Shown: positions 8,952-63,733 of the stretch, in pieces | Layout of the letters: each line of letters starts with the position of its first letter | Position numbering within the stretch: position 1 is the first letter of the stretch | Assembly: GCF_026151205.1 (NCBI RefSeq) | Contig: NC_087078.1 | Coordinates: forward strand, 372,001-436,000 | Length of the DNA: 64,000 bases | Direction: 5' to 3' | Origin: Bolinopsis microptera | Lineage: Eukaryota; Ctenophora; Tentaculata; Lobata; Bolinopsidae | The notes under the pieces: generated by a model | Told to the model about the DNA's origin: nothing | The model's input: only the letters and a program-made list of their open reading frames with translations | The model's database searches: none | Made by a program: the position numbers and the translations under genes

Positions 8952-9902
8952 TCACTTTCTTGTGAAGTGTACATAATACAATGTATGTATTACTATTAAA
9001 AGGTTAAAGTTAACAAAATTATTTATTATTTCCGAGTCGGTGTAACAATAGAAGTAAGGGTTTCTTGCGGAGTAGTAAGTAAATTGCGGAGTAGTAAGTA
9101 AATTTATTTAAAACGCTAAAATACTAAAAAGTCAATAGCTATTATTGTGCTTTCAATTAGGGCTATAATCAGGTAATATATCTGATATCATAATATTACA
9201 ATGTGTTAGAAGTTATACAACGTGTTCAGGATAAAGCCATTAACCAGTAGTACACCACGTGACTCAGTCGGCGGCGGGCTTGGTAACCCTTGGTAACTCT
9301 GCGGGATGTACAGTAATCAATTACTCACTTTATACCCAGTTTGCTTACTTGTATTCTTCTTTACCTTCACTCTACTAAAAACATCTCCTCCTTCAAAAAG
9401 CAGCTGATCAGTAACCCTTGGTAACCATTGGGCTTGGTAACCCTTGGTAACACTTGGTAACTCGAAGAACCTTTTACGATCTCTTAACGCCTTGGTGAGT
9501 TGATATTTAACAAAGTAACAACCTCTTTAAGTAGTCTTGACATCTCTTTACGAGTCACCTCGCACTTCTGCTCAATTTTAACCTTCCTCTAAAATCTAAT
9601 CATCTCATCTGCCGCCTTTGTTTGAGAAAACAGTCACGTGTTACCATGGGAACAGTGAGAGCTTTGAAACAAGGTTATATATTGGGACTAGTAAAGTTAT
9701 ACTACCCGGCAGGTGCATAGCAGCTGTACTCGTTTAAAATGCCGACCTTGCTAACCTAATAAACTTGCTTTTTACTTTCCCACTTTGATGACTATTTTAC
9801 TTAAATGCTGCTACACTTGGACTGCTCAAATTCGCGTTTAAACGTCTTTTGCAATGAGGATTTAATATAGTCGCTGTACACCGAACTGGATCTACAAACA
9901 TT
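8952..9902. other. Intergenic upstream of the GPCR
   Basis: It holds repeated CTTGGTAAC nonamers (9279-9302 and 9418-9463), which are X-box half-sites, and TATATATT near 9675 about 225 bp upstream of the GPCR ATG. No exon is seen. Confidence 0.45.
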
Positions 9903-19953: not shown

Positions 19954-20192
19954 GGCAGTATCCGAGTAGCCTGACATGTGTTCGCGAACAGGTGTTCCCG
20001 AACCCTAACCCTAGCCCTAACTCTAACCCTAACTCTAACCCTAACCCTAACCCTAACCCTAACCCTAGCCCTAACTCTAACCCTAACCCTAACCCTAGCC
20101 CTAACCCTAACTCTAACCCTAACTCTAACCCTAACCCTAACCCTAACCCTAACTCTGTTCAGGAACACATGTCGGGCTACTTGGATACTGCC
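19954..20192. mobile_element. TIR element filled with telomeric repeats
   Basis: A tract of CCCTAA hexamers with interspersed CTCTAA and CCCTAG variants (about 20002-20156) lies between two inverted repeats of about 38 bp. The left arm is 19954-19991 (GGCAGTATCCGAGTAGCC...) and the right arm, read in reverse, is 20155-20192 (GGCAGTATCCAAGTAGCC...). The arms differ at only a few positions. The flanks AGTGTTTAT and AGTGCCTAT could be a decayed target duplication. The repeat is open in several frames only because its period is six. Confidence 0.8.
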
Positions 20193-42800: not shown

Positions 42801-45800
42801 GACTAGGAGGGCTAGAGGGGTGACTAGGAGGGCTAGAGAGAGGGGACTAGGAGGGCTAGAGGGGGACTAGGAGGGCTAGAGAGTAGAGGGGGACTAGGAG
42901 GGCTAGAGGGGTGACTAGGAGGACTAGAGAGGGGACTAGGAGGACTAGAGGGGGAACTAGGAGGGCTAGAGGGGGAACTAGGAGGGCTAGAGAGGGGACT
43001 AAGAGGGCTAGAGGGGGGACTAGGAGGGCTAGAGGGGGGACTAGGAGGGCTAGAGAGTAGAGGGGGACTAGGAGGGCTAGAGGGGGGACTAGGAGGGCTA
43101 GAGGGGTGACTAGGAGGGCTAGAGGGGGGACTAGGAGGGCTAGAGGGGGGACTAGGAGGGCTAGAGGGTGACTAGGAGGACTAGAGGGGGAACTAGGAGG
43201 GCTAGAGGGGGACTAGGAGGGCTAGAGGGGGGACTAGGAGGGCTAGAGGGGGGACTAGGAGGGCTAGAGAGTAGAGGGGGACTAGGAGGGCTAGAGGGGG
43301 GACTAAGAGGGCTAGAGAGAGGGGACTAGGAGGGCTAGAGGGGGGACTAGGAGGGCTAGAGAGTAGAGGGGGACTAGGAGGGCTAGAGGAGGACTAGGAG
43401 GGCTAGAGGGGGGACTAGGAGGGCTAGAGGGGTGACTAGGAGGGCTAGAGGGGGGACTAGGAGGGCTAGAGGGGGGACTAGGAGGGCTAGAGGGGGGACT
43501 AGGAGGACTAGAGGGGGGACTAGGAGGGCTAGAGGGGGGACTAGGAGAGCTAGAGGGGGACTAGGAGGGCTAGAGGGGGGACTAGGAGAGCTAGAGGGGG
43601 ACTAGGAGGGCTAGAGGGGGGACTAGAAGGGCTAGAGAGGGGACTATGAGGGCTAGAGGAGGGACTAGGAGGGATAGAGGGGGACTAGGAGGGCTAGAGG
43701 GGGACTAGGAGGGCTAGAGGGGGGACTAGGAGGGCTAGAGGGGCTAGGAGGGCTAGAGAGAGGGGACTAGGAGGGCTAGAGGGGGGGGACTAACCAATCA
43801 TAATATTTATTGATATTGTTCGAGTATATGATTATCATTATATACTTTTATGTAATATCCCATTGAGGCCCTTGGGTGGCCCCCATCGCGGGTTTACTAC
43901 TAGTAAGAAAAATATCAAAAGATTAAATCAATCTTCGTCGAACTTCCTTCACGGTAACAGTAGAAAGTGGATTTATCGGCCAACATTCTGTTAAATGAGA
44001 GATCCTTCCTCTGTTTAAGGGGGCCGGGGGGTCTTCCTCTATTTAAATTATCACAGCTGTTAGCAGTAGGATCAAATTAGCTCACATTTTTAGAGAAAAG
44101 TGATTTTTATCGTACGTGATTGGAAGATTCTGGCCGATTACCGACCGATTATCGGCACTAGGCCGGTAATCGGCACTAGAGCATTAGTCAAGTAATAAGC
44201 AAAACTGTAAAAGAGCAAGTATATATACTTGCTCTTTTACAGTTTTGCTTATTACTTGACTAATGCTCTAGTGCCGATTACCGGCCGATAATCGGTCGGT
44301 AATCGGCCTGCAAACCTTTTTTGAATAACCCTGTAAGTGTATATATACACTTACAGGGTTATTCAAAAAAGGTTTGCAGGTTTGGTTCTTAAATACCTTA
44401 ATAGAGCCCGGCATTGCAGTGATTAATAATAATCTAGGAGGGATATAGGGGGGACTAGGAGGGCTAAAGGGGGGACTAGGAGGGCTAGAGACGGGACTAG
44501 GAGGGCTAGAGACGGGACTAGGAGGGCTAGAGAGGGGACTAGAAAGGCTAGAGGGGGGACTAGAAGGGCTAGAGGGGGGACTAGGAGGGCTAGAGAGGGG
44601 ACTAGGAGGGCTAGAGAGGGGACTAGGAGGGCTAGAGAGGGGACTAGGAGGGCTAGAGGGGGGACTAGGAGGGCTAGAGAGGGGACTAGGAGGGCTAGAG
44701 AGGGGACTAGGAGGGCTAGAGAGGGGACTAGGAGGGCTAGAGAGGGGACTAGGAGGGCTAGAGGCGGGACTAGGAGGGCTAGAGGCGGGACTAGGAGGAC
44801 TAGAGAGGGGACTAGGAGGGCTAGAGGGGGGACTAGGAGGGCTAGAGGGGGACTAGGAGGGCTAGAGGGGTGACTAGGAGGGCTAGAGGGGGGACTAGGA
44901 GTGCTAGAGGGGGATTAGTAGGGCTAGAGGGGGGACTAAGAGGGCTAGAGGGGGGACTAGGAGTGCTAGAGGGGGATTAGTAGGGCTAGAGAGGGGACTA
45001 GAAGGGCTAGAGGGGGACTAGGAGGGCTAGAGGGGGGTTAGGAGGGCTAGAGAGGGGACTAGGAGGGCTAGAGAGGAGACTAGGAGGGCTAGAGGGGGGA
45101 CTAGGAGGGCTAGAGAGGGGACTAGGAGGGCTAGAGAGGGGACTAGGAGGGCTAGAGGGGGGACTAGGAGGGCTAGAGAGGGGACTAGGAGGGCTAGAGG
45201 GGTGACTAGGAGGGCTAGAGGGGGGACTAGGAGTGCTAGAGGGGGATTAGTAGGGCTAGAGGGGGGACTAAGAGGGCTAGAGGGGGGACTAGGAGTGCTA
45301 GAGGGGGATTAGTAGGGCTAGAGAGGGGACTAGAAGGGCTAGAGGGGGACTAGGAGGGCTAGAGGGGGGTTAGGAGGGCTAGAGAGGGGACTAGGAGGGC
45401 TAGAGAGGAGACTAGGAGGGCTAGAGGGGGGACTAGGAGGGCTAGAGAGGGGACTAGGAGGACTAGAGAGTAGAGGGGGACTAGGAGGGCTAGAGGGGGG
45501 ACTATGAGGGCTAGAGGGGGACTAGGAGGGCTAGAGAGGGGACTAGGAGGGCTAGAGGGGGACTAGGAGGGCTAGAGAGGGGACTAGGAGGGCTAGAGGG
45601 GGGACTAGGAGGGCTAGAGAGGGGACTAGGAGGGCTAGAGAGGGGACTAGGAGGGCTAGAGGGGGGACTAAGAGGGCTAGAGAGGGGACTAGGAGGGCTA
45701 GAGAGGGGACTAGGAGGGCTAGAGGGGGACTAGGAGGGCTAGAGAGGGGGACTAGGAGGACTAGAGAGTAGAGGGGGACTAGGAGGGCTAGAGGGGGGAC

Positions 45801-48800
45801 TATGAGGGCTAGAGGGGGACTAGGAGGGCTAGAGAGGGGACTAGGAGGGCTAGAGGGGGACTAGGAGGGCTAGAGAGGGGACTAGGAGGGCTAGAGGGGG
45901 GACTAAGAGGGCTAGAGAGGGGACTAGGAGGGCTAGAGAGGGGACTAGGAGGGCTAGAGGGGGGACTAGGAGGGCTAGAGAGGGGACTAGGAGGGCTAGA
46001 GAGGGGACTAGGAGGGCTAGAGGGGGGACTAAGAGGGCTAGAGAGGGGACTAGGAGGGCTAGAGAGGGGACTAGGAGGACTAGAGGGGGGACTAGGAGGG
46101 CTAGAGAGGGGGACTAGGAGGACTAGAGAGTAGAGGGGGACTAGGAGGGCTAGAGGGGGGACTATGAGGGCTAGAGGGGGACTAGGAGGGCTAGAGAGGG
46201 GACTAGGAGGGCTAGAGGGGGACTAGGAGGGCTAGAGAGGGGACTAGGAGGGCTAGAGGGGGGACTAAGAGGGCTAGAGAGGGGACTAGGAGGGCTAGAG
46301 AGGGGACTAGGAGGGCTAGAGGGGGGACTAGGAGGGCTAGAGAGGGGACTAGGAGGGCTAGAGAGGGGACTAGGAGGGCTAGAGGGGGGACTAAGAGGGC
46401 TAGAGAGGGGACTAGGAGGGCTAGAGAGGGGACTAGGAGGGCTAGAGAGGGGACTAGGAGGGCTAGAGGGGGGACTAAGAGGGCTAGAGAGGGGAGGGGG
46501 TTTAAAATAATAATATTGAATAAATAACTCCCTAGATTCACGATCTCCGTAACAGACCTCTGACAGTTCTCACCACTAATCAAGATGGAAAGAAAGTGAA
46601 CATAGCCAACACAGACAGACTCACGAAGGAGCTGGAGAAATTCCAGGGTCTGGACGAGGAGCTGGCTTTACTGCAGGTAATATGGTTATTAGGTTACTAG
46701 CTGGTTACTAGGTTACTAGCTGGTTACTAGGTTACTGGCTGGTTACTAGGTTACTAGATGGTTACTAGGTTACTGCCTGGTTACTAGGTTACTGCCTGGT
46801 TACTAGGTTACTAGCTGGTTACTAGGTTACTGGCTGGTTACTAGGTTACTAGCTGGTTACTAGGTTACTAGCTGGTTACTAGGTTACTGGCTGGTTACTA
46901 GGTTACTGGCTGGTTACTAGGTTACTAGCTGGTTACTAGGTTACTGGCTGGTTACTAGGTTACTAGCTGGTTACTAGGTTATTCCAGGCTTTACTGCAGG
47001 TAATATTATTTAACATTTATAAAAAGTTGAAGTAATTAATATATTAATTATGTATTAAGTTTTGTCACATAATAATAGCTGTAATATTAAATAAAGATCT
47101 CTTAAATTTGATATTTATCTCCGTAATTTAGCTAATGACAAGAGTGAAGAGATATTGGCATAAACCTCAGTGAAGTTTTGACATTTAGTTGTTTGTTTTA
47201 GGGAAAGATAAGACTTGTTTAGAACTTTTATTAACGTTTTTAAAATAAAAAATTCAACCTCCTCATCCTCTTCATAAAGTTTGTATTTTAATCTTTACAA
47301 AAGAAACTTTTGTAAAAATTAAAACTTACGAGGACCCTCTGCTGCATTATAAAGTGCTTGTCACTATATAGTGTTGTCACTATATAGTGTTGTCACTATA
47401 TAGTGTTGTCACTATATAGTGTGATTACCCCCTCTGCTGTTACCGAATATCGCACTACCATAACCAAATCTCCATCAGGAAGACTTCCTGTTGATGGAAC
47501 AAAAGTGGCTTGCAGAGCAAAAAAGGAAGAAGTATTTCGAGGATCAAGCTCTGATAGAAGAAAAGAAGACGAAAGAGATATCTCAACAACTCTACATGAT
47601 AATGACTAACGAGCTAACTCCTGCTAGTTTCAAGGTTGGGACCATACTTACTAGTTACCATGGTAACACTGCTAGTTACCATAGTAACACTACTAGTTAC
47701 CATGGTAACACTGCTAGTTACCATAGTAACCTGCTAGTTAACATGGTAACACTGCTAGTTACCATGCTAGTTACCATGGTAACACTGCTAGTTACCATGG
47801 CAACACTGCTAGTTACCATGGCAACACTGCTAGTTACCATGGTAACACTGCTAGTTACCATGGCAACACTGCTAGTTACCATCGCAACACTGCTAGTTAC
47901 CATGGCAACACTGCTAGTTACCATGGCAACACTGCTAGTTACCATGGCAACACTGCTAGTTACCATGGCAACACTGCTAGTTACCATGGCAACACTGCTA
48001 GTTACCATGGTAACACTGCTAGTTACCATAGTAACCTGCTAGTTAACATGGTAACACTGCTAGTTACCATGCTAGTTACCATGGTAACACTGCTAGTTAC
48101 CATGGCAACACTGCTAGTTACCATGGCAACACTGCTAGTTACCATGGTAACACTGCTAGTTACCATGGCAACACTGCTAGTTACCATCGCAACACTGCTA
48201 GTTACCATCGCAACACTGCTAGTTACCATGGCAACACTGCTAGTTACCATGGCAACACTGCTAGTTACCATGGCAACACTGCTAGTTACCATGGCAACAC
48301 TGCTAGTTACCATGGCAACACTGCTAGTTACCATGGCAACACTGCTAGTTACCATGGCAACACTGCTAGTTACCATGGCAACACTGCTAGTTACCATGGC
48401 AACACTGCTAGTTACCATGGCAACACTGCTAGTTACCATGGCAACACTGCTAGTTACCATGGCAACACTGCTAGTTACCATGGCAACACTGCTAGTTACC
48501 ATGGCAACACTGCTAGTTACCATGGCAACACTGCTAGTTACCATGGCAACACTGCTAGTTACCATGGCAACACTGCTAGTTACCATGGCAACACTGCTAG
48601 TTACCATGGCAACACTGCTAGTTACCATGGCAACACTGCTAGTTACCATGGCAACACTGCTAGTTACCATAAAGCTTCCTTACTAATCAGCTCTATATAA
48701 TGGTAAGTGTTATTACGTATTACGTATTAAATCTAATATTAATCCCATGAATAATTTAGCGATGCATCAACGAACAGTGTGCAAAAAGAAATGATAAGAA

Positions 48801-51800
48801 AAGGCTAATTCTAAATTATGCATCACACTTCACAGTGTCATGTTACCACAATTACTAGCGTAATAATTTGATGAGTCGATAAAAGAGACAAAACACTACA
48901 GAATACTGTACAGCATTTTCCTGTGTAGTTGAATGAAATCAAGATTTAAGTTGAGTAGTTGGAGCGGATACCGTTGCCTTTCTCGTTTAAAGCGAAAGGC
49001 GGTAAATCGCCGGTAAATTGTCGATAGGACGCTGGTAAAGTGCCGGTAAAGCAAATAATTAGGATTAACTATGATCTGGTCGTGTGTTGGAGATCATATC
49101 TTTGTTTGGAGATTTGCTGCTCGCTAGCGCTACCAAGCGTCTGATAAAGTAAACCATTATTAAGCCTCTGTTCAGGGAGGAGCCAGTTCTATGATAAAGT
49201 GAGGAGCTATGAACCATGAAATATATTTTATTGTTATTTGGAGCAATGAGTATTAGAGATAATACAGTGCAACATATCTTTCTTTGGATAAAGTAAACCA
49301 TCAAGCTATGAAATATATTGTATTGTTATTTGGAGCAATGAGCATGGGATTAGTACAATTCACCTTAGTGTGCCTTATCTAACATACACCTCATAATTGC
49401 ATATATCTAAACTACTCTTTGTGCCTCCCCCTTGTAACTACCAATCTTTAGACATTGATTATCTGACTAGACGAACACAATATTAAACTTTAAACTATAA
49501 TTATAACTCCTTTGTTAAGTGTGTTATCACGTACAGAGGTCAATCTGTTGTATTGGTTCCCCGACAAATACAGTCTGAATATTAGAGATAATATAAGTAT
49601 TAGAGATAATACAACATTTCCCCGGTACCCCGACAAATGCAGTCTCAATATTAGAGATAATATAAATATTAGAGATAATACAACATTTCCCCGGTACCCC
49701 GACAAATGCAGTCTGAATATTAGAGATAATATAAATATTAGAGATAATATAAATATTAGAGATAATATAAATATTAGAGATAATATAAATATTAGAGATA
49801 ATACAACATTTCCCCGGTACCCCGACAAACAGGATTAAACAGGATTAAACATAAATTAAACAGGATTAAACAGGATTAAACATAAATTTGTCAATGAGAG
49901 CCCTAACACTCACGTCTTGACTATACATCAATATAATAGAAATAAATAAATAAATAATGTGCAAGAGTATTCTTAAAATAAAAATTTAAAAATCATAAAA
50001 ATTTAACTTCGTCACATCTTTTGTTGAAAGAGAAACAAGTGCAAATAAAATAATTTAATTCCCATGAACATGTTCCAAAATGATATGATATGTTGATCGT
50101 AATATGAAATGAAATGAAGCCCGACTTGACCGTCACGTGTCCGCAGAGGAGTTCCGTTGAGGTGTAGCGGGGACTTTACAGCTGGACTTCAGCAGATCCT
50201 TCTTAGTGACTTCCTTCTTCGGGAAACGCCTGTTGTTTGCTCTCACCAAGAACCTCGCTGTCTCTCTTATGAGGCTGGTATCTGTGAATAGCCCCTCTAA
50301 GTTAGCGAAAAGACAGGTTTTGGCTCTCTGACTAAAGCGGTGTCGGTAGGAGGTGTTGGAGCAATATTTCATCTTTCCTAACTAGTTGTCAGTATAAACA
50401 ACAACGTAACGTGAAAAAATCTACCTGCTCTCAACTTAAAACATTTTCTATGAACATAAGATCCCTTATTAAGAATATAGATCAACTACGTGATGATATT
50501 GAGACTTATGATAAGTATGATATATTGTGTTTTAACGAAACTAATTGCACTTTAGGGAAATTACCGAACGGAATAAACGACGTTACCTTAGATGGATTTC
50601 ATGAACCATTTATCCAGGATCCAATTCGCCCATCTGGAAAAGGTGGGGGGCTAGCCACTTATGTACACAAACGTGTAGTCGATTATGATAAAATTGATAT
50701 TTTCACTCCAAACCCTGAACCAACTAATACTAGTGGCGAATTCCAATTTATCAAGCTCCATCAGTGCAAAGGATACAACAGAACGAAAATAATTGGCAAT
50801 GTTTACCGTTCTCCCGCTAGGAGACCTGAAGCGTTTCTAGAAATTTTCAAAAATACGCTGCACAACCTAGGGAGACACACCCGTAAACATATGACGCTTC
50901 ATGGAGATTTCAACCTTGATTTACTGAAGCACAGCAGCAACCAAGCATGTCAGAACATTATAGATATTGCGTCCTCTTACGGTTTTATTCAAATTGTATC
51001 ACGCCCAACTCGCCTAACGGACCATAGTGCCACGCTTATTGACCACATCTACACAAACAATCTTGAGGATACAATAAGCTGTAACGTCTTAACGACAGAT
51101 ATGTCTGATCACTTAGCAATAGTCACTACAATAAATCTTGATAACACGCCAACCAGCAGCTACCGCTCTGCGTCTAACTCACAAAATGTATCTCAAACTG
51201 AAACACGTAGATTTAACGACACCAACAATCAAAAATTCAGAGACTTAATTACAGATGAAAGTTGGTCAGAAATTTTTAACAATACCAATGATGCCAACGA
51301 ACAGTTCAATAATTTAAATACGGCTTATAATAAGATTTACGAGTCTGCCTATCCCACAAAAAGACAATCACGAAGACAAAATGAACGTGTTAATCCGAAA
51401 CCATGGATGCTGCCCTGGCTCGAAGAAGCTATAGAACGTAAAAATGAGTCATATTACGATTTTGTTAAGGAACCATCTGATAGTAACCGCAGTAAATATG
51501 ACCGTCTGAAGAAGTTTTGTAATAAACACATCGATAAAGCTAAAAACAAGCACTTCAAAAAATTTTTTGAGCAAAACAAAGAAAATTCTAAGAAGCAGTG
51601 GCAAATGATAAACAGTCTTCTTAATAGGAAAAAATCTAAACCTACTTCAATTAAACTGACTGACGAAGACGGCTCAATCAGCACTCCGGCAGCTGTAGCA
51701 GAAAAATTTAACGATTACTTCTCAAACATCGCTCCTAAAATTAAGTCTGAAATTAGTAGTAGGACCACTTTTGATCCTGGTGGAACCCATAGCACACTTC

Positions 51801-54800
51801 GCAACGCCACTCCAAGTAGTATTTACTTAAAGCCAGTCACTGCCACAGAAATTCAGGACGTCATAAACCTGCTTAAGAATAAAGCCACACTAGACACTAA
51901 AATTGAACCTCTAAAAATCGCTAACAGCTGTCCCAGTTTTACTAGTGTACTAGCCCACGTTGTCAACAGTTCTTTTGAACAGGGGATCTTTCCACAGGCT
52001 TTGAAAGAAGCGAAGGTGGTCCCAATTCACAAAGGTGGATCTAAATCTGACATAAAAAATTACAGGCCAATATCTCTTCTTGCTTCTTTCTCTAAAGTAT
52101 TTGAAAAGCTAATGCATAACCGAGTTATAAGTTTTTTAGATAAATACAGCATACTATGTGAAAACCAATACGGTTTTCGCCCGGGTAGGTCTTGTGAACA
52201 TGCTCTTCTCAACGCAAAAGACACCATTCTTAATTCAATGTCCAAAAAGCAGGTAACTTTACTTCTTTTAATCGACTTCAGCAAAGCTTTCGACCTTGTG
52301 GATCATTCCATACTCTTGCGCAAGCTGGACCATTACGGCATAAGGGGTCAAGCCTTAAACTGGTTTAAGTCATATCTCACTAACAGGAAACAGTTTGTAT
52401 CAATTGGCTCGTCAAAATCTTCAACCAACCAAATTTTATACGGCGTGCCTCAAGGGTCAATATTAGGACCTTTACTTTTTATAATCTACATAAACGACCT
52501 ACCTCAAATATCAGATATAGCAAATTTCATTATGTACGCAGATGATGCCAACATCTTCCTGATAGGAGAAAATCTTAATGAAGTTTACGATAAACTAATA
52601 ACTCTTAGCGATGCTTTAGTTAAATGGGTAGATAATAATGGTTTAGCTCTAAATCTTAAAAAAACGAATTATATGATCTTCTCTCGACAAAGAAATCTTA
52701 ATTATCGTGATGTGGCAATTTCTGGTGTCACAATTGAGAGAAAAACAGAAGCCCGTTTTTTAGGAGTTATAATAGATGATAAACTAAACTGGTCCCATCA
52801 TATTTCTGCCATGAAAATGAAAATGTCCAGATACATAGGAGTCATGTACAAACTTAAAAAATATCTGCCTCTCGAAGCACGTCTTCAAATTTATCAAAGT
52901 TTTGTGCAGTCACACCTTAATTATTGCAGCCTTGTATGGGGTTTTGCTGCCAAGTCTCATATTGAATCGCTTTTTGTAAAACAGAAAATGGGCCTTCGAG
53001 CAGTATTACCTGGTTTCGTCAATTACTGGTACAAGGACGGTATCCCCCCAGCAAGTACCAAGTCTGGCTTTTATTCACATAAAATATTGACAGTACACAG
53101 TATCATTGTAAAGAACGCACTCATTTTAATGCATAAATTGAAAAACTTTCCTAATCTAGTACCATTGTCTCTCAAGAAAACAATTCCCAAAAGTGCACCA
53201 TTATTTAATACTAACCTGGATTCTATTCTCACTACACAATGGTCAGAAAAGTATGGTCAACACCCTTACAACAACTCAGTATTTTTTAAAGGTCCATTAT
53301 TAGCAATAAACCGATATAATGTTGCAGCAACTTCCCCGCCGAGTCTATTTAACCTGAACATTTACAAAACTTGTATAAAAACTATGCTCATCGATCAGCA
53401 AAATGAAAACATCGAAGACGATTGGCCTAATTTCATGTTATATTGTATAACAGGACTAAGAAAATCAAAGCGTAACATAAACCAAAATGCCGATAATAAC
53501 CTTGTCTCTACATCTTAGATTATATGCACACACTTATGCATCACTCAATAAACGTCGCATATCTCATCAATTACACTGCCAACATAGGACATTCTTTTTT
53601 ATCGCCGCGATTTCAAATCAAGTTACAAATTCTACAAATTTTGAAGTGCTCAGTCTTGTTTTACTTTTCTTATCTTTACCTATTAACCATTGGAAAATAA
53701 AACTTTAAATTATAAACCTTCATTGCATACTTTACCGGTAGAATCTAAATTGAATAGTTTGAGATTTCCTTTACATTTTATATTTATGCATGTGCCCCAC
53801 GGGGATGAATTTCTTATTACCATTGATATTATATATATTTTTTTTGAGTAAACATTGGCTGGTACCACGGGCCAGTCCCCAACAAAAAAAAAGTCTTCAT
53901 ACAGGGAGCAGGTCCGGAGGACGTGTACCTCATCTTCGATGATGGGGTCGAAGAATGGCATTTCTGCGAAATTTTCGAGCATGTCCATGTCCTCTGTTGA
54001 GCAAGCTTTACATATCCGAGGTACGATCTGGTTTCTTTTGTGGGTTCCATGACGTCCTGTCTCAATATTGAAATTGTGTGAGCTTGATCTGAATTGAGCC
54101 AGCTTTTTGGATTCAGCGTGCGACAGATTCATATTGAGGTACTGCTCATAGCCAAAACTCATCTTTATGGTGTTGTAGAACGTTAGTTTCTTGTTGTTCC
54201 ATCTCTCAGTGTTCCATATCTGCCTGAAGTTGGAACGCATCGCTTCTTTGATTTGTGAAGGTGAGAGTTTTAGATGATGTCCATTGGGTTGGTTTAGAAC
54301 CGACCGTGCGGTCTCGATGTTGGTGTTCCAAGAAAGACTGAGGCTGCGTTGCTCTTTGAAGGCATGTCGCACAAGACTGTTAGATCCAGCTTTCTCCATT
54401 TTATCTAATCTTTCCCAGTAGTTATACACTTGGGATGATAGCTCTATCGCCAAAGGGTAGCGTCCTGTGTCACCCCAAATTGCCGCATTTGATGTTTGTT
54501 TATTGACGTTGAGAGTCCACTTGAGAAACGAGATGTGAAGTTTTTCTATTGGATCTTGCCTGATCTGTTTTAGGTTGGGAAAGTTACCCGATGAGAAGGC
54601 ACCCATGAAGTATGTCTGAGGGAGCCAAATCTGGCATCCATAAGAGACTACTGGGACAATAAGTGCATCGAAGAGTTTAAATATTATCTCTTTCCTTATG
54701 TGTCGTAAGTCTATCATGCTTTTAAGCGAAAAATAACTCCGAAGTCCTTTCTGCCTAAGTTTGGACTGTGCGACCTTCAGGGATCCTGTCAGAGTGAAAG

Positions 54801-60800: not shown

Positions 60801-62447
60801 CTGGAGGGGTACCTGGCGGGGTACATGGCGGAGTGCCAGGGACACATCAAACATCTCTCGCGCCAGGTTACCATAGCAACTTGTTCATGATACTATTTGT
60901 TAAATAATGCAAATCTTTAAGAATTCTGATGCTCTAGTAGTAATTTATAATAACAATAAAACCCTAACAGGGTTGGTGTACACCAACAAACAGGGAGGCT
61001 CTCCTCTGGGACCCGCTCAACAAGGGGGCTCCCCCCTGAGTCCTGGTCAAACTGCCCCTCCAGCCCCTCCCGCGCCAGTTAGTTCACTTCTACTCCCTCC
61101 AGCCCCTCCCGCGCCAGTTAGTTCACTTCTTACTGTCTTGTAATATCTTAGCATTAGCTTAATTACACTTAAATAAGTAATGTTATCAAGCAACGTGTCC
61201 GTATAACCTCTCTAACCAGATAACTCTCCTAGAATGCGCCTAGAGCGCCTCTTCCACCACCTGCCCCTCCAGCTCCCAGACCACCTAATGCGCCTCCTCC
61301 ACCGACCGCTCCACCCGCTCCTCGCCCTCCCAACGCACCTGCCATAGGTAGGTAACCACTAACCATGAGACCATGGTAACATAAGTTACGTAAACAACGT
61401 AAACTAACTTTTACATTTACAGCAAAGTTTTCTTTATTTGATTATATTATATTATATTATTAAAGTACTATTCTAATTGCAGGTCGGACAGCGCCCCCTG
61501 CGCCTCCTCCACCTAATGCACCTCCTAATGCGCCTCCCCCGCCGCCCCCTCCACCCGCAGCACCCCCCGTCCTGGATTCACGTATGATGGCTGGCAAACA
61601 GACTCCTGGAGGACCACCACCCCCTCCAGCACCCCCGGGAGCTTTTGTACCCAGAGGCAGATTGGAGGACCTCAAGAACAGAAAAGGTAGGTAGCCATTT
61701 AAAAAACTGTAAACAAAGGCTGGTAGCTGCAGTACTAAATAATGAATGTTTTGGATGATAGTAAAGGGGGTTGCACAGAGACAATAATCTTAGGGCCAAG
61801 GATGAAGGATTTAGGTTGTCTATGATTCTGGTTCTTTGCGGAAAAGTATAATAGTATTACAAGGTCTACAAGGTTTATAAGGTTTACAGTAGGATTAAGT
61901 AACCTAAATAGTTAGCTACTGCAATTGAAGCGGCTTTAAGCAACGCTATACAGTACTATGCAGACTACCATTGTAAAATGAATTGTACCAAGCGAGTCGT
62001 AACCAGGCAACCAAAACCAAATTCTAATCCTCTAAATCATAAAGCAGCTCAAAGTGAATTTATTCTGAGTTCGTCACATTATCGTCAATGAAGGGTTCTA
62101 TAAAAGAGGTTTAAACTTGTGTAACCGTCAGGAAGGAAAGCCAGAAACAACACGGTGATAAAAAAGAAAACTCTAACATTCGGTCCTACCAAGCCTTTAA
62201 AGGTATTTAATTGGGCAAAGCTGCCCGATGCTAAAGCTGCTAACTGTATCTGGAAAGATATCGACGAAATCGATGTGAGTGTTTTATAATTATAGGGGTT
62301 ATACTCTGAAATTTTGTGTGCTTTATTATTCGGTTTATTTCAACTTATCAAAGTTTAACGTTTACTAATAAGGGCTATTCTCAGATGGTTACGATGTTGA
62401 ATTTAGATGAGATTGATGAACTTTTCCAGTCCAAAAAATCTGTTAAG
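37514..62447 (+). CDS. Formin-like actin nucleator, 14 exons, 3' end missing
   Basis: Fourteen exons chain with consistent phases into 1266 codons, or 1279 with the alternative donor of exon 10. The order is: disordered N-terminus with possible LC8-binding motifs (about 173-215), long helical region (about 365-620), serine-proline tail, coiled-coil exons 2-6, a linker, a glycine-valine segment, a proline-rich FH1 (exons 10-12) and the start of FH2 (exons 13-14: KPLKVFNWAKLP, CIWKDIDEID, MLNLDEIDELF). The FH2 start resembles the DAAM/diaphanous group, in which FH1 feeds profilin-actin to FH2 for filament growth. I see no clear GBD/DID at the N-terminus. About 350 residues of FH2 and any DAD are not found before 64000, so the gene either continues beyond the window or is truncated. 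Introns carry minisatellites and two LINEs. The assignment rests on FH1 followed by FH2. Confidence 0.8.
39817..40484 (+). other. Formin intron 1
   Basis: AT-rich, with a short duplicated TAAACTAAATCTAGTTAAC near 40014 and 40054. No other signal is seen. Confidence 0.5.
40485..40543 (+). CDS. Formin exon 2, coiled coil
   Basis: Bounded by ttcag| and ATG|gtgagt. It reads KNLLEEIERLKQEKHSIYD, a heptad-like helix, and passes phase 2 to phase 1. Confidence 0.75.
40641..40742. mobile_element. hAT-like MITE in formin intron 2
   Basis: GGTTCTTTTGCGATAGTGTA and its exact inverse form arms of about 32 bp around a duplicated GCGACAACTAGCGCT. CTGTTTTT is duplicated exactly on both sides (40633-40640 and 40743-40750), an 8-bp target duplication. 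Confidence 0.88.
40790..40803. promoter_or_regulatory. Perfect X-box in formin intron 2
   Basis: GTTACCATGGTAAC. A near copy, GTTACCATGGTAAT, lies about 68 bp downstream. Confidence 0.3.
40896..40987 (+). CDS. Formin exon 3, coiled coil
   Basis: It reads YQEYFNLALDQEEEIHYLED then ELERTKRQIN. Bounded by ttcag| and AAC|gtaagt, with phase 1 in and phase 0 out. A perfect X-box (40992-41005) starts five bases into the intron. Confidence 0.78.
40992..41005. promoter_or_regulatory. Perfect X-box overlapping a splice-donor region
   Basis: GTTACCATGGTAAC begins at donor position +5 of exon 3. A palindrome this close could fold with the donor in RNA; this is inference. Confidence 0.3.
41221..41955 (+). 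repeat. 19-bp minisatellite in formin intron 3
   Basis: About 38 copies of CTGGTTACTAGGTTACTAG, with CTGGTCACCAGG and ATGTTACTAG variants. A shorter array of the same unit lies in intron 5 (46683-46983). Confidence 0.95.
41975..42073 (+). CDS. Formin exon 4, coiled coil
   Basis: 33 codons from ttcag| to ATG|gtaatg, phase 0 both sides. It contains DQELELHYLKEEREVAYKD and DLEDELADSRLM, clearly coiled-coil. Confidence 0.8.
42447..42550. repeat. Imperfect foldback in formin intron 4
   Basis: TTAATTAAAATGCCCTCATTGTC pairs imperfectly with GACAATGCAAGTATTTTAATTAA, and GGTTTAGGGAATTAT pairs with ATAATTCCCCAAACC inside it. The centre is GGAATTCT. It is probably a MITE remnant. Confidence 0.65.
42735..43790 (+). 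repeat. G-rich CTAG minisatellite, block 1 (intron 4)
   Basis: About 50 copies of a 19-21 bp unit, GGGGACTAGGAGGGCTAGAG, with variable G-run length and inserted AGTAGA segments. Block 2 follows at 44430. Confidence 0.95.
43791..44131 (+). other. Unique-looking insert between satellite blocks
   Basis: It includes the inverse of the AAACCCGCGATGGG motif seen near 14385. Together with the palindromes that follow, it interrupts the CTAG satellite, so it probably came in as one insertion. Confidence 0.5.
44132..44308. repeat. 177-bp palindrome
   Basis: The central 124 bp (about 44162-44285) is a perfect palindrome with TATATA at the middle. The outer arms (GGCCGATTACCGACCGATTA and inverse) also pair, with one 7-nt insertion in the left arm. 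It overlaps a second palindrome by two bases. Confidence 0.92.
44307..44380. repeat. 74-bp perfect palindrome
   Basis: CCTGCAAACCTTTTTTGAAT... reads identically on the other strand across 37-nt arms with no spacer. TATATATA is at the centre. Confidence 0.95.
44430..46497 (+). repeat. G-rich CTAG minisatellite, block 2 (intron 4)
   Basis: About 100 copies of the same 19-21 bp unit as block 1. Variant blocks recur at about 300-360 bp (the GAGAGTAGAGGGGG segment near 45465, 45765 and 46125; the GTGCTAGAGGGGGATTAGTA segment near 44902, 44962, 45232 and 45292), showing higher-order structure. It ends 38 bp before exon 5. Confidence 0.95.
46536..46676 (+). CDS. Formin exon 5
   Basis: 47 codons, ccctag| to CAG|gtaata, phase 0 both sides. 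It reads IHDLRNRPLTVLTTNQDGKK then LTKELEKFQGLDEELALLQ, ending in a coiled-coil segment. Confidence 0.78.
46683..46983 (+). repeat. 19-bp minisatellite in formin intron 5
   Basis: About 16 copies of CTGGTTACTAGGTTACTAG or TGGC variants, the unit of 41221-41955. Its right edge is followed by GGCTTTACTGCAGGTAATAT (46986-47005), a duplicate of the exon 5 end and donor. Confidence 0.93.
47006..47357 (+). other. Formin intron 5, AT-rich part
   Basis: No feature seen apart from AT-rich sequence. Confidence 0.4.
47358..47422. repeat. 16-bp TTGTCACTATATAGTG repeat
   Basis: Four copies; each contains the palindrome CACTATATAGTG. Confidence 0.92.
47479..47634 (+). CDS. Formin exon 6, charged coiled coil
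   Basis: 52 codons, catcag| to AAG|gttggg, phase 0 both sides. It reads EDFLLMEQKWLAEQKRKKYF and DQALIEEKKTKEISQQLYM. The donor is weak (GTTGGG) but the phase fits exon 7. The X-box satellite begins about ten bases downstream. Confidence 0.7.
47640..48680. repeat. 1-kb tandem array of a 21-bp X-box unit
   Basis: About 49 copies of ACTGCTAGTTACCATGGCAAC and the TAAC variant. Every unit contains GTTACCATGGCAAC or GTTACCATGGTAAC. A segment with one irregular spacing (GCTAGTTAACATGGTAAC then GTTACCATGCTAG) occurs near 47725 and again near 48030, showing duplication of a block of about 305 bp. It is open in several frames on both strands because its period is 21. Confidence 0.97.
48681..49559 (+). 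other. Formin intron 6, left part
   Basis: It contains a duplicated segment of about 45 bp (ATGAAATATATTTTATTGTT ... GGAGCAATGAG) near 49213 and 49309, and early ATTAGAGATAATAC motifs of the satellite that follows. No exon is seen. Confidence 0.5.
49560..49829. repeat. 70-bp-unit satellite, left half
   Basis: Units combine CCCCGACAAATGCAGTCTGA with two or more copies of ATATTAGAGATAATATAA and ACAACATTTCCCCGGTAC. The same satellite resumes at 58469, so the 8.6 kb between looks inserted. Confidence 0.92.
49830..53708 (+). mobile_element. LINE-A, non-LTR element with intact ORF2
   Basis: One long ORF (50411-53518) with APE endonuclease and RT is followed by a 190-bp 3' region ending in AATAAAACTTTAAATTATAA. 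ORF1 is absent, so the element is 5'-truncated or of a single-ORF type. It lies tail-to-tail with LINE-B copy 2. Both sit inside a block that interrupts a satellite. The left limit is uncertain: 49830-49900 holds a repeated CAGGATTAAACA motif. A 79-codon minus-strand frame at 50133-50372 is unexplained. Confidence 0.85.
50411..53518 (+). CDS. LINE-A ORF2: APE endonuclease and RT
   Basis: The single frame is 1035 codons. The N-terminal endonuclease shows FSMNIRSLIKN, LCFNETNC (metal-binding Glu), GGGLATYVH, GNVYRSP, LHGDFNLDLL and DMSDHLAIV (catalytic Asp-His). The RT shows VVPIHKGGSKSDIKNYRPIS, NQYGFRPGRSCEHALL, LLIDFSKAFDLVDH, GVPQGSILGPLLFIIYINDL and FIMYADDANIF (catalytic pair near residue 709). 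It nicks target DNA and copies element RNA. The motifs fit the Jockey/CR1 group, and all key residues are present with no stop or frameshift, so the copy is young or recently active. The frame opens with GTG at 50411; the first ATG is at 50451 and the frame extends upstream, so the true start is uncertain. Confidence 0.92.
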   Translation: MKKSTCSQLKTFSMNIRSLIKNIDQLRDDIETYDKYDILCFNETNCTLGKLPNGINDVTLDGFHEPFIQDPIRPSGKGGGLATYVHKRVVDYDKIDIFTPNPEPTNTSGEFQFIKLHQCKGYNRTKIIGNVYRSPARRPEAFLEIFKNTLHNLGRHTRKHMTLHGDFNLDLLKHSSNQACQNIIDIASSYGFIQIVSRPTRLTDHSATLIDHIYTNNLEDTISCNVLTTDMSDHLAIVTTINLDNTPTSSYRSASNSQNVSQTETRRFNDTNNQKFRDLITDESWSEIFNNTNDANEQFNNLNTAYNKIYESAYPTKRQSRRQNERVNPKPWMLPWLEEAIERKNESYYDFVKEPSDSNRSKYDRLKKFCNKHIDKAKNKHFKKFFEQNKENSKKQWQMINSLLNRKKSKPTSIKLTDEDGSISTPAAVAEKFNDYFSNIAPKIKSEISSRTTFDPGGTHSTLRNATPSSIYLKPVTATEIQDVINLLKNKATLDTKIEPLKIANSCPSFTSVLAHVVNSSFEQGIFPQALKEAKVVPIHKGGSKSDIKNYRPISLLASFSKVFEKLMHNRVISFLDKYSILCENQYGFRPGRSCEHALLNAKDTILNSMSKKQVTLLLLIDFSKAFDLVDHSILLRKLDHYGIRGQALNWFKSYLTNRKQFVSIGSSKSSTNQILYGVPQGSILGPLLFIIYINDLPQISDIANFIMYADDANIFLIGENLNEVYDKLITLSDALVKWVDNNGLALNLKKTNYMIFSRQRNLNYRDVAISGVTIERKTEARFLGVIIDDKLNWSHHISAMKMKMSRYIGVMYKLKKYLPLEARLQIYQSFVQSHLNYCSLVWGFAAKSHIESLFVKQKMGLRAVLPGFVNYWYKDGIPPASTKSGFYSHKILTVHSIIVKNALILMHKLKNFPNLVPLSLKKTIPKSAPLFNTNLDSILTTQWSEKYGQHPYNNSVFFKGPLLAINRYNVAATSPPSLFNLNIYKTCIKTMLIDQQNENIEDDWPNFMLYCITGLRKSKRNINQNADNNLVSTS
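53710..55134 (-). CDS. LINE-B copy 2 ORF2, RT C-terminal part
   Basis: 474 codons beginning at the RT MSPELFKCFVHALSEEL motif. It includes LLWADDLVLLAL (catalytic Asp pair), VNMSKTAIMVFN, YTYLGMTFTLTG and the C-terminal CKACS ... EDEVHVLRTC zinc-binding-like motif. It is continuous in sense with 55083-57350 but displaced by one base. The frame change lies near 55138-55145, just after the LNKG motif. Thus the start of this frame is not a real start. Confidence 0.88.
   Translation of the reverse strand: MSPELFKCFVHALSEELNELDNIEVPIINSIKVTHLLWADDLVLLALNPESLHKMLSVLYAYCQEWGLVVNMSKTAIMVFNRAGRILKDSKTFAFGLTPIDSVREYTYLGMTFTLTGSLKVAQSKLRQKGLRSYFSLKSMIDLRHIRKEIIFKLFDALIVPVVSYGCQIWLPQTYFMGAFSSGNFPNLKQIRQDPIEKLHISFLKWTLNVNKQTSNAAIWGDTGRYPLAIELSSQVYNYWERLDKMEKAGSNSLVRHAFKEQRSLSLSWNTNIETARSVLNQPNGHHLKLSPSQIKEAMRSNFRQIWNTERWNNKKLTFYNTIKMSFGYEQYLNMNLSHAESKKLAQFRSSSHNFNIETGRHGTHKRNQIVPRICKACSTEDMDMLENFAEMPFFDPIIEDEVHVLRTCSLYEDFFFVGDWPVVPANVYSKKIYIISMVIRNSSPWGTCINIKCKGNLKLFNLDSTGKVCNEGL
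55083..57350 (-). CDS. LINE-B copy 2 ORF2, endonuclease and RT N-part
   Basis: 755 codons starting with an ATG that overlaps the ORF1 stop (ATGAGTGA at 57343-57350). APE motifs: LSWNVHDS, FCLQETKRE, RSGGICIGIHRS, ILLVGDLNARTG, VVDYMAATP and HSDHKPYICDL. RT motifs: PLHKKGNVYDPNNYRAIAVA, NQLGFCKGAQTADH and CFVDYAKAFDTVCREAL. It ends in residues without homology after a one-base change near 55140. Copy 1 shows the same stop/start overlap, so ORF2 is probably made by reinitiation after ORF1. Confidence 0.9.
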   Translation of the reverse strand: MSENASAHFRDHVTVFKDLPILSWNVHDSMTSKEGPKTDDKDFVDVLLQSSIFCLQETKREFFLPNYECFNSTRKDSRSGGICIGIHRSLSGKVKRLNTGCPDFQAVTIFPQDDCKFTIINVYDSPEQSSYKAKRKAKGSGPNPQMTTLEQIMEFRAQNPNMGEILLVGDLNARTGNRNVAAEELEPDSDPEDFNTASYPGTTERASKDQIVNARGSLLLDFLACNKLQILNGCTLGDIFGEFTSVNYNGCSVVDYMAATPDLKEAVLSFKILELNKHSDHKPYICDLKCTNSTIDTSDLLDSLEDAPTKYKWNNEDEGTHFNFLAAQNSPEFQTKITRISATRCNNKNDVLELNSNLVSLYQELAGTVLPKKSNSQTKPKPGSKNRVKRHRMKPKSPWFDGSCINSKRELNRLAKSYGKNPSSQYLRELYYDTRRSYRKLIKSKRSAFIEELCRDIESGKNVNWGRFKRLKQMKTKDSTLDVFDMFNFCKFFKDLYSKPSMDNLKITGLQNEMVKDTTQSSITEILDHDISSEELCNNIRTLKKNKAVSEDMISNEFLKSSGNNMQSAVLHLFNQCLSFGVYPWSTSVVTPLHKKGNVYDPNNYRAIAVASNLGKLFAGILLNRLIEFRSVVNPDTPNQLGFCKGAQTADHILTLSTCIEKYVKVEKKRVFSCFVDYAKAFDTVCREALLYKLWKLGVQGRFFNCMEHMYTHSSAKIKLLNKLSEKIDVLCGLNKGIPCPRNCSNASYMPSPKN
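57343..58374 (-). CDS. LINE-B copy 2 ORF1, SGNH-containing C-terminal part
   Basis: 343 codons. The C-terminal half aligns with the SGNH-like domain of copy 1: KCLIVYDDLFDDFD, LLHVGHQDIFWQR, SLIIPVPGYPNLNETIR and LGGYITRGTDSHG. The GDS serine position is YDD here, so catalysis is doubtful in this copy. The N-terminal part is acidic and disordered. Compared with copy 1, about 1000 residues are missing at the 5' side. Confidence 0.8.
   Translation of the reverse strand: MVEEETEEATVLPPPSNTIFSEEEIEICETTDVWECDDVIEVPPQAIPVLKTPSPDTLTIPIKGNLNPEMNEILKDQEIAQQVQHCTPTPTEVSVMIENKAKVNDKAPLKVKLNTNHPVRVNTNVLQPRRSGATQAPHKRKCLIVYDDLFDDFDSDRFSGQFDINKYRAFSVDDILTKGSLLSKVRNLKPEIVLLHVGHQDIFWQRTSADDLLSKYKQVIYKLLESTEAKICISLIIPVPGYPNLNETIRIVNDRLSSFISNLRRDSRIKYGDRIFTSSNDQLGGYITRGTDSHGVTIFLSEGGKRKAWLLLKDALQRSLGLNRDRETKLNLSRRTNKKNTNE
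58469..58858. repeat. 70-bp-unit satellite, right half
   Basis: The same units as 49560-49829 (AATGCAGTCTGAATATTAGA, ACAACATTTCCCCGGTACCC), then a run of ATATTAGAGATAATATAA copies. Confidence 0.92.
59046..59139 (+). CDS. Formin exon 7
   Basis: ttgcag| to GCAG|gtaacg, phase 0 in and 1 out. It reads EKVMKQDPSSLAELPQLTGS then QLNALLTLFV. I do not recognise a domain. Confidence 0.75.
59146..59500 (+). repeat. 49-bp repeat in formin intron 7
   Basis: Five or six copies of GAACTGAACACTACTACCTT then GCTACTACTCTGTTATTAGA and CCAGCACGT, with deletions in some units. Confidence 0.9.
59501..59878 (+). other. Formin intron 7, remainder
   Basis: AT-rich with a TTAATTAATTAAATTAATTA run before the exon 8 acceptor. 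No other signal is seen. Confidence 0.5.
59879..59971 (+). CDS. Formin exon 8
   Basis: ttacag| to CAAG|gtaata, phase 1 both sides. It reads GALPEDKVPKSSEIFTLEEL then QKSGQYTSDQ. Confidence 0.75.
60118..60731. repeat. 25-bp X-box array in formin intron 8
   Basis: About 24 copies of GTTACCATAGTAAC followed by CAGTTCCCCGT, with occasional TATAGTTCCCC variants. The palindromic core is X-box-like with an ATAG centre. It ends at the acceptor of exon 9. Confidence 0.96.
60738..60866 (+). CDS. Formin exon 9, glycine-valine repeats
   Basis: cccag| to CCAG|gttacc, phase 1 both sides. It encodes GLYGGVPGGVPGGVHGGVPG and then THQTSLAP. The donor GTTACC is itself the start of an X-box-like GTTACCATAGCAAC. 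Confidence 0.7.
60971..61116 (+). CDS. Formin exon 10, start of FH1
   Basis: Acceptor taacag| at 60970. It reads GGSPLGPAQQGGSPLSPGQ and then APPAPPAPVSS. A 39-bp in-tandem duplication creates two equal donors (GCGCCA|gttagt) at 61077 and 61116, both phase 0, so the exon may end at either, with 13 residues optional. Reading past the second donor meets a stop at 61141. Confidence 0.7.
61233..61347 (+). CDS. Formin exon 11, FH1
   Basis: cctag| to ATAG|gtaggt, phase 0 in and 1 out. Proline-rich (APLPPPAPPAPRPP, APPPPTAPPAPRPP), suited to profilin and SH3 binding. Confidence 0.8.
61483..61686 (+). CDS. Formin exon 12, FH1 and FH1-FH2 linker
   Basis: ttgcag| to AAAG|gtaggt, phase 1 both sides. 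It reads APPNAPPPPPPPPAAPP, then KQTPGGPPPPPAPPGAF and the linker RGRLEDLKNRK. Confidence 0.82.
61687..62131 (+). other. Formin intron 12
   Basis: It contains a degenerate run of CAAGGTTTA-like units near 61860-61890, similar to the LINE-B 3' tail but with no element attached. Confidence 0.45.
62132..62274 (+). CDS. Formin exon 13, FH2 start
   Basis: gtcag| to GAT|gtgagt, phase 1 in and 0 out. It contains FGPTKPLKVFNWAKLP and AANCIWKDIDEID. The pattern K-x-F-N-W-x-K-L then W-x-x-I-D is the FH2 N-terminal lasso and linker signature, in which the Trp inserts into the partner subunit. Confidence 0.85.
62385..62447 (+). CDS. Formin exon 14, FH2 continuation
   Basis: ctcag| to AAG|gtaaga, phase 0 both sides. 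It reads MVTMLNLDEIDELFQSKKSV, matching the D-L-x-x-h-E-x-x-F segment of FH2. No later FH2 exon is found up to 64000 on this strand. Confidence 0.8.
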
Positions 62448-63048
62448 GTAAGATTTTAATTGTTATCGTTATTTAACTTGCTGTCCGTTAATACTTAATA
62501 CTTTAATATAACGTATTAATATCTCTAGTCGTATTGTATTTTGTTGCTATTTTTGTGATAAATGAAACTACAAGTTAGAAGTTAAGTTATCAAGCATCTT
62601 AAATAGTCTCAAATATGAATACCATGCAATTCAGGTTCAAATATCATTAAATAACACTTCTCAAATAGATACAGTCGATATATTACAAAATAAATAACAC
62701 CATAAAAACGTTAACTAAAATGGAACAATGTCTTCCGGAAACCCTTTCCTTCTTAATAAAAGTTCACAAACGATAAAAACAATCAACAACGCAACATACA
62801 TAAATAACATTACCTTAATGGTAGTACTACTATGGCAAAGTCACCATGGTAACCTTACTGCTAAGTTACCATGGTAACCTTACTGGTAAGTCCACAGTTA
62901 AAAGAAACCTGAGCATCACATCGCACGGCGACAAAAATGAATTTACAGCCGTTCAGGCTGTATTCTCGGAATAAATGAGCTAAACTAGAACTAAAGCTGG
63001 AACTAGAACTAAACAAGAGCTAAAATAGAACTAGATCGTCCTTATAAC
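62448..63048. other. Region between formin exon 14 and neuropeptide stop
   Basis: It contains a duplicated AAGTTACCATGGTAACCTTACTG pair with a perfect X-box at 62865-62878, and a repeated AACTAGAACTAAA(G/C) motif near 62984-63035 that would be the 3' UTR of the minus-strand gene. No formin exon is seen. Confidence 0.5.
62865..62878. promoter_or_regulatory. Perfect X-box
   Basis: GTTACCATGGTAAC lies between the last visible formin exon and the neuropeptide gene. Confidence 0.3.
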
Positions 63049-63733
63049 TTAACCAGCCCGCGGTCTGAAGAAGAATCCTGCTAACTCGTCCTGTGTGCTC
63101 TCAGTTCCATGTTCCACTGCACGTTTAACGTTGTCATGGTAACTCTCGGCGTTGTCATGGTAACTGTTATAGAGCTCAGCAGATCGTTTTCCGCCAGGTT
63201 TGAAGAAGAATCCAGCTGCTGCATCTTCAGAAGATTCTGTTCCTTGCTCACTTACACCGCGTTTGATGTTGTTATGGTAACGTCTCAGCGTTGTTATGGT
63301 AACGGTTCTCCGCGCTTCTCCCTCCCCTCGGTCTGAAGAAGAAAGCATCCTGGGGTCCCTCAGTTGCACTTTCAGCTACCGCTCTCTTTGCTTTGATCAA
63401 ATGTAGGGGGTTTTTCGGCTTCATGAAGAAGCCTCTTGCAGCAGCAGCAGCTTGCAGCTTGTCAACCACTTGTTGAAGTGAGTTAGGTAGCTCAGCAGCT
63501 GGTTGAAGTGGTAGCTCAGCGGATCTCTTGCCGTATTTTTCTGGTTTGAAGAAGAAAGCTGCAGCTCTGTCCTCTGAAGTCTCCGTCCCCTCCTCTCCGG
63601 CTGCTCTCTTGTGTTCAGGTTTCCAGAAGAATCCAGACTGGTTGTCTATCGCTAGAATGCTTCCAGCTGAACTGATCGGAGCAGCATCTAGCTGTGAGAT
63701 GAGGGCTAGGAGGAAAGCAGGAATCAGGAACAT
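63049..63733 (-). CDS. Neuropeptide precursor with FFFKP/FFFRPR peptides
   Basis: From ATG at 63733 the protein starts with a signal peptide (MFLIPAFLLALISQLDA, cut about residue 17). Modules of acidic spacer, aromatic peptide and basic cleavage site follow: GFFWKPEHKR, AFFFKPEKYGKR, GFFMKPKNPLHLIKAKR and AFFFRPRGGR. The first frame then stops at 63272. In the next frame the modules continue (from about 63300): GFFFKPGGKR and, at the very end, GFFFRPRAG-stop, where the final Gly would give an amide. Spacers such as GTESSED and GTESTQDE lie before the peptides without dibasic sites, as in cnidarian precursors cut after acidic residues. PRX-amide ends recall cnidarian PRXamides and, more distantly, neuromedin U or pyrokinin. 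The products would be secreted and act on GPCRs. The frame changes by one base near 63284 in a duplicated segment; this may be a real allele, an assembly error or decay. Confidence 0.78.

Follow-up and report, generated by a model that had tools for sequence, protein, structure and literature searches.

Does a short stretch of the Bolinopsis microptera genome with six related FF(F/W/M)(K/R)P peptides encode a neuropeptide precursor, is this precursor read as one protein, and is it related to the PRXamide peptides of other animals? Ctenophores are one of two candidates for the sister group to the rest of the animals. Peptide signals in this phylum are relevant to whether nervous systems had a single or a double origin. 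We analyzed a window of 64 kb (the whole stretch of DNA that was analyzed here), along with 10 kb of adjoining DNA and 196 kb further, for a scanned region of 270 kb. The adjoining DNA is called L002, and its positions are counted on from 64,000, such that L002:4372 is position 68,372. Genome searches covered 264.65 Mb in 232 contigs.

Structure of the candidate precursor gene

Six-frame translation placed six FF(F/W/M)(K/R)P modules on the minus strand, from 63733 to 63049, downstream of a signal-like start. A first-pass annotation had proposed these modules at 63049..63733, and they are indeed present there, above chance. Its reading of the six as one precursor frame did not hold. The assembled precursor is split over two frames that lie one base apart after module 4, with modules 1–4 in the ATG frame and modules 5–6 shifted by one base. 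No single open frame covers all of the modules, and straight-through translation of the six runs into stops.

Frame A (63272..63733, minus strand) is an ATG ORF of 153 codons, which contains the signal-like start and modules 1–4 and ends in a TAA stop. The signal peptide that had been annotated was recovered as a signal-like start, MFLIPAFLLALISQLDA (63683..63733, minus strand), predicted by a home-made hydropathy and -3/-1 test. In this test the signal segment of frame A has a hydropathy of 2.80 and the later maximum is 0.73, with no further membrane helix. By the -3/-1 rule, cleavage of the signal is possible after residue 17. Frame B (63049..63281, minus strand) is the coding continuation with modules 5–6, assigned by frame-specific purifying selection, and also ends in TAA; the frame B ORF as a whole spans 63369-63049 on the minus strand.

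All six modules lie on the minus strand and share FF-x-(K/R)-P. Module 1 (FFWKP, 63617..63631) reads SGFFWKPEH and module 3 (FFMKP, 63416..63430) reads GFFMKPKNPLHLIKA; both are followed by KR and neither has an amidation Gly. This Gly is present in the remaining four modules, which are module 2 (FFFKP, 63542..63556; AFFFKPEKY-G-KR), module 4 (FFFRP, 63329..63343; AFFFRPRG-G-R), module 5 (FFFKP, 63196..63210; GFFFKPG-G-KR), and module 6 (FFFRP, 63061..63075; GFFFRPRA-G-stop). Amidated PRG, PRA, and GFFFKPG forms had been anticipated, and modules 4, 6, and 5 do carry the necessary Gly, but that list was too short, as the Gly is also present in module 2. The residues after the core vary from module to module: EH, EKY-amide, KNPLHLIKA, RG-amide, G-amide, and RA-amide, the amides being predicted. 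The acidic spacers (GTETSED, ATEGPQD, GTESSED, and GTESTQD) and basic sites (KR or R) were seen as annotated, and an Asp or Glu precedes modules 2, 4, 5, and 6.

The register change between the two frames

Unit spacing and DNA alignment place the switch from frame A to frame B, a change of one base, at 63278..63288 (minus strand), where two GTTACCATAACAAC units join. The spacing of the GTTACCATRACAAC units is 22 nt ahead of module 5 and 21 nt ahead of module 6, and in a DNA alignment of the two stretches the extra base lies at about 63,282. The register shift probably reflects either an error in the assembly or a recent allele.

Were the shift real, the allele would yield a shorter precursor with modules 1–4 only, and modules 5–6 would be a decaying tail. 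The extra base sits outside a homopolymer in the assembled sequence, which is consistent with a real shift. So is the state of the six best-matching glutamate-receptor loci in the same assembly, which are uninterrupted ORFs of 654–949 codons; since these loci are intact, the assembly does not appear to be riddled with shifts. Among 32 glutamate-receptor matches in the genome, one weaker match has an internal stop. However, the shift falls where near-palindromic tandem units meet, a place at which errors in the consensus are plausible. The assembly of Bolinopsis microptera described in PMC10232365, presumably the same one, was made by wtdbg from PacBio reads. That assembly is reported there as about 254 Mb, with 13 chromosome-scale scaffolds holding 97.23% of bases. 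Furthermore, modules 5–6 retain their KR sites, their Gly residues, and a low pN/pS, and have no stops, so any break would have to be recent. We consider a genuinely shortened precursor possible, though doubtful.

A short intron bridging frames A and B would leave the mature message open with no sequence error at all. Sixteen GT...AG pairs of at least 30 bases (donors from 63,400 down, acceptors above 63,190) join the frames in phase, for example 63303-63237 (67 nt). Yet by eye no pair has a pyrimidine-rich acceptor together with a donor of the form GTAAG or GTRAG, the donors being GTAGCT, GTGCAA, and GTTACC, and coding sequence in the next unit is homologous to the candidate stretch. An intron is thus a very unlikely source of the frame change, and an assembly error or recent allele remains our preferred reading.

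A near-palindromic GTTACCATGGTAAC unit is found in the window at 62837-63304 and in many other places, with 35 exact copies in the 270 kb versus 0.001 expected from base composition. We take this unit to resemble an RFX X-box. The YHNN/YHDN codons of the precursor are a variant of it, and the widespread repeat therefore seems to have entered the coding sequence.

Clustering of the motif

The pattern FF[FWMYLIV][KR]P occurs at seven places in the six frames of the 270 kb. Six of these are in the precursor and the seventh is in an ORF 5 kb away. The strict motif likewise has seven places, six of them in the precursor gene. Twenty simulations under the region's Markov-1 model gave means of 0.3 for the strict motif and 2.0 for the wide motif, and three scrambled control motifs were found at 3, 2, and 1 places in the same 270 kb. 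When the residues of the precursor were shuffled 100,000 times, 99,935 shuffles contained no motif and 65 contained one.

Genome-wide, TTCTTCTTCARRCC, the TTC-coded form of FFF(K/R)P, was found at 39 places versus 28 for its reversed control, and TTYTTYTTYARRCC at 325 places versus 451 for its control; both patterns miss Arg coded by CGN, and the TTYTTYTTYARRCC locations were seen for part of the 325 places. A genome-wide motif excess was dropped as an argument on these counts (325 versus 451 and 39 versus 28). Next to the reversed controls, the bare motif shows little or no enrichment across the genome and its clustering is the special part, with the four places in the precursor gene forming the sole TTCTTCTTCARRCC cluster in the genome. 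A second copy of frame A was not found in the genome at E 0.001, with two candidates scored. In Pfam, frame A has no match at E 0.01, and frame B and the neighboring FFFKP ORF have none at E 1.

Coding potential and selection

A codon score was trained on six glutamate-receptor ORFs and one tubulin exon and compared over the 278 ORFs of 90–300 codons in the 270 kb. By summed score, frame A ranks first of 278, the frame B ORF ninth, and the neighboring FFFKP ORF 94th. Because several ORFs made of repeats also score high, the codon score is not decisive by itself.

The repeated units could also be compared with each other. As uncorrected proportions over 14–17 synonymous sites, between copies within one gene and with hand-placed gaps, units 5 and 6 gave a pS of 0.83 and a pN of 0.19 in the peptide frame (ratio 0.22), versus ratios of 2.00 and 1.36 in the two remaining frames, where stops are present. 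Third positions hold 15 of the 26 differences between these two units (permutation p 0.002). Units 2 and 5, which lie on opposite sides of the shift, gave a pS of 0.99 and a pN of 0.18, and units 4 and 5 gave 0.86 and 0.31, each in the peptide frame only and on the same uncorrected basis. Over all 15 module pairs, the six core codons have a pS of 0.54 and a pN of 0.15. The six cores contain 16 Phe codons, all of them TTC, which means that the selection signal comes from non-Phe codons.

Since purifying selection is seen in units before and after the shift, both stretches were coding; the stretch after the shift appears to have been coding until recently, or may still be coding. The large synonymous change elsewhere in the units suggests that they are old and have been kept as protein. 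A chance ORF was ruled out by the shuffles, the clustering, the codon score, and selection. The locus is very probably a real ctenophore multi-copy secreted peptide precursor that is kept by selection within the gene.

Formin-like exons around the precursor and a second FFFKP ORF

On the plus strand, exon-like stretches of a formin-like gene flank the precursor gene: two in the window at 62179..62447, at the start of FH2, and later ones at about 71,100-71,283 and 73,630-73,848, all with approximate limits. The stretches translated for Pfam comparison were 62,125-62,286 (FH2 parts 5-35, E 0.0042), about 62,310-62,456 (no Pfam match, FH2 by eye), about 70,975-71,283 (FH2 parts 84-130, E 1.3e-4), and 73,630-73,848 (FH2 parts 256-304, E 7.2e-5). 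The three Pfam matches are below the cut-off, and the partial FH2 matches are collinear with the domain order. Between these exons are the precursor (minus strand), a tubulin gene (L002:1170-2393, minus strand; Pfam Tubulin and Tubulin_C), and a second FFFKP ORF (plus strand). A further stretch resembling a tubulin exon was seen by eye at L002 about 3073-3246 on the minus strand. Nested intronic genes have been described in the ctenophore Hormiphora, with 2,357 in 1,654 hosts (PMC8527503).

The second FFFKP ORF (68,372-68,872, or L002:4372-4872, plus strand), 5 kb from the precursor, was recognized by translation, hydropathy, and dibasic sites. It has a signal-like start, one FFFKP and an AFFYAP stretch, and KR sites, as well as AFFYAPTHGPRQY-R and HSFFFKPPRVRDN-KKR. 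It has no amidation Gly, and its SNQLPS parts look like a local repeat. A signal-like start, a cleavage-like site, and at least three dibasic sites occur together in four of the 129 ATG ORFs of at least 80 codons in the 270 kb. The precursor is first and the second FFFKP ORF second by hydropathy among those four, and one of the other two has a later membrane segment. Searched as protein against the genome, this ORF gave no second copy, only eight weak matches at E 0.017 to 0.77. One strict motif per 270 kb is within chance, and only its closeness to the precursor is remarkable. The codon score is also ordinary, and the case for a sister gene comes from place and layout. By these two features, the second FFFKP ORF is probably a diverged sister gene of the precursor.

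Predicted processing and function

We consider it likely that the locus encodes a ctenophore neuropeptide-type prohormone, which would be multi-copy, secreted, and cut into FF-x-(K/R)-P peptides that are partly amidated. If expressed, the precursor would be taken into the secretory pathway by its signal peptide and cleaved by proprotein convertases at KR or R. Cleavage may also occur at the acidic residues preceding the peptides, by analogy with Bolinopsis mikado (PMC9525235). The basic residues would then be trimmed by a carboxypeptidase, and an amidating monooxygenase would convert the exposed Gly of four modules to a C-terminal amide. The predicted products are AFFFKPEKY-amide, AFFFRPRG-amide, GFFFKPG-amide, and GFFFRPRA-amide, plus two non-amidated forms. 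The calculated [M+H]+ is 996.5526 for GFFFRPRA-amide, a mass it shares with AFFFRPRG-amide, 798.4297 for GFFFKPG-amide, and 1175.6248 for AFFFKPEKY-amide.

Domains of suitable processing enzymes are present in the genome, with eight matching stretches for P_proprotein and five for Cu2_monoox_C. As with the listed glutamate-receptor, second-ORF, and TTCTTCTTCARRCC matches, all those listed are on contigs C1–C13. The latter domain is also part of dopamine-beta-monooxygenase-like enzymes, so these matches do not prove that an amidating enzyme is present.

Signal peptides, repeats, dibasic sites, and amidation occur outside of neurons too, and the peptides here are aromatic and cationic. The same precursor could therefore release non-neural peptides with a gland, colloblast, antimicrobial, or other secreted role. 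Against this, there is no Cys in either frame A or frame B, and neuropeptide precursors classically combine short single-core modules with an amidation Gly and acidic spacers. We find a non-neural product unlikely and favor a neuropeptide-type prohormone.

Because FF-x-(K/R)-P is common to all six modules, a receptor would be expected to read this aromatic-basic-Pro core. The C-terminal ends, in turn, may tune stability or receptor choice. We tentatively extend this to an undescribed ctenophore family, in which two or more sister genes sit inside a single formin gene, the internal core is read, the ends vary, and the RPRX-amide has an independent origin; this fuller picture is plausible but, taken as a whole, somewhat less likely than its negation. 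If it is true, reading of an internal core would turn around the C-terminal rule that usually holds for amidated neuropeptides. The ends would then be free to vary, as amide or acid and as RPRG, RPRA, KPG, or EKY. A well-bounded precursor with six testable peptides offers a concrete ligand set for receptors.

Comparison with known peptides

A C-terminal PRX-amide is the defining feature of PRXamide families, and FLFRPRN-amide is the end of vertebrate neuromedin U. Here a PRX-amide end is predicted in two of the six modules only, so most of the peptides do not end this way. The first-pass annotation had connected the precursor to cnidarian PRXamides and bilaterian FxPRX-amides, a link that we do not retain: RPR is found in two of six modules, the shared part is FF-x-(K/R)-P, and the host is a ctenophore. 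A glutamate-receptor ORF of this genome also points to a ctenophore: its best solved relative is the ligand-binding domain of ML032222a, a Mnemiopsis leidyi gene number, at 407.5 bits for a chain of 256 residues versus 243.5 bits for the highest-scoring receptor besides it, kainate 2, with identity at 188 of 260 aligned positions, where five chain residues fall in both aligned pieces. What survives of the proposed new neuropeptide family is a multi-copy, partly amidated secreted precursor under purifying selection and without a Pfam match. The accompanying view that no known family has this core fits the open main texts searched, where none of the papers listed gives the core as a ctenophore neuropeptide, but needs care in light of the slug peptide FFFRPAPRGa and the FLFRPRN-amide end of neuromedin U.

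True homology with cnidarian PRXamide or bilaterian neuromedin U/pyrokinin precursors would draw on several short resemblances. Modules 4 and 6 would end in FFFRPRG-amide and FFFRPRA-amide, and RPRA- and RPRGamide, together with WPRPamide, are among the hydrozoan MIH peptides (PMC7266959), where Hym-355 is FPQSFLPRGamide. Unlike the cnidarian PRXamides, the other four modules have no PRX end, the part in common is the FF-x-(K/R)-P core, and the animal is a ctenophore. In a slug, the myomodulin2/3 genes encode the NmU/PRXamide peptides FFFRPAPRGa and SFFRPAPRGa, and the myomodulin2 gene also yields myomodulins (PMC7749107). These resemble the Bolinopsis peptides in having FFFRP or FFRP and a PRG-amide end, but in FFFRPAPRGa an AP stands between FFFRP and RG. 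A slug receptor is activated by QPPLPRYa, QPPVPRYa, and AVPRPRIa (PMC7749107). Hydra Hym-690, KPLYLFKGYKPamide, similarly has an aromatic residue close to KP (PMC7266959). However, the KP of Hym-690 is the C-terminal amide, whereas the residues after KP here are G, EKY, EH, or KNPLHLIKA.

Matches of three to five residues easily arise by convergence. In published clustering, other ctenophore precursors are unlike cnidarian and bilaterian ones, the gene described here not being named there (PMC9525235), and receptor work in Nematostella is reported to support separate expansions of the peptide systems of cnidarians and bilaterians (PMC11087051). Given resemblances of three to five residues, RPRX ends in two of six modules, and the published clustering, homology with cnidarian PRXamides or neuromedin U appears unlikely from the sequence, and descent from a common PRXamide or neuromedin U/pyrokinin precursor is the most improbable of the explanations considered. 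The precursor instead looks like a lineage-specific ctenophore signaling peptide family and not a proven PRX-amide or neuromedin U relative. This suggests that PRX-amide-like ends can easily arise outside Cnidaria and Bilateria, and calls for caution with homology based on three residues.

The closest setting for comparison is Bolinopsis mikado, in which mass spectrometry identified amidated short peptides with cleavage at acidic and basic residues (PMC9525235). These include NPWa, FGLa, RWFa, VWYa, WTGa, NVFa/NIFa1 and 2, TFQa, LNSa, and PARa. The Bolinopsis microptera precursor is like this set in belonging to the same phylum and probably the same genus, in its amidated short peptides, and in basic and acidic cleavage, the cleavage here being predicted. 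It is unlike the set in its core and ends, which none of the ten named precursors (13 in all) has according to PMC9525235. The main text of that paper contains no FFF, KPamide, RPRA, KPGa, RPRGa, PRAa, or EKYa, and no ctenophore peptide with the core was found among the papers listed from open main texts. The kind of precursor is well known, and the FF-x-(K/R)-P family appears new by these searches. The gene may already be included in published ctenophore peptide tables or supplements; 72 Pleurobrachia peptide candidates, for example, are cited in PMC9525235.

Other features of the window

ARAGORN and Rfam searches of the 64-kb window gave nothing bearing on the precursor, nor did PDB comparison of the second of two GPCR-like ORFs. 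These two form a class A GPCR-like pair that is apparently split by an intron (window 9858-11066, plus strand). The second ORF matches Pfam 7tm_1 at E 6.4e-5, below the cut-off, and the first has no match. By eye, another GPCR-like ORF starts on the minus strand at position 520780 of the same contig, C7 (NC_087078.1). Three reverse-transcriptase (RVT_1) ORFs at 6157-6711 (plus), 22873-25230 (minus), and 50336-53515 (plus), the third with an endonuclease domain, are retroelements of non-LTR look. A satellite of 3.7 kb at 42758-46495 is built from the 21-base unit GGACTAGGAGGGCTAGAGGGG and has strong GC skew. Finally, an interstitial telomere-like array of 26 CCCTAA repeats lies at 19997-20153.
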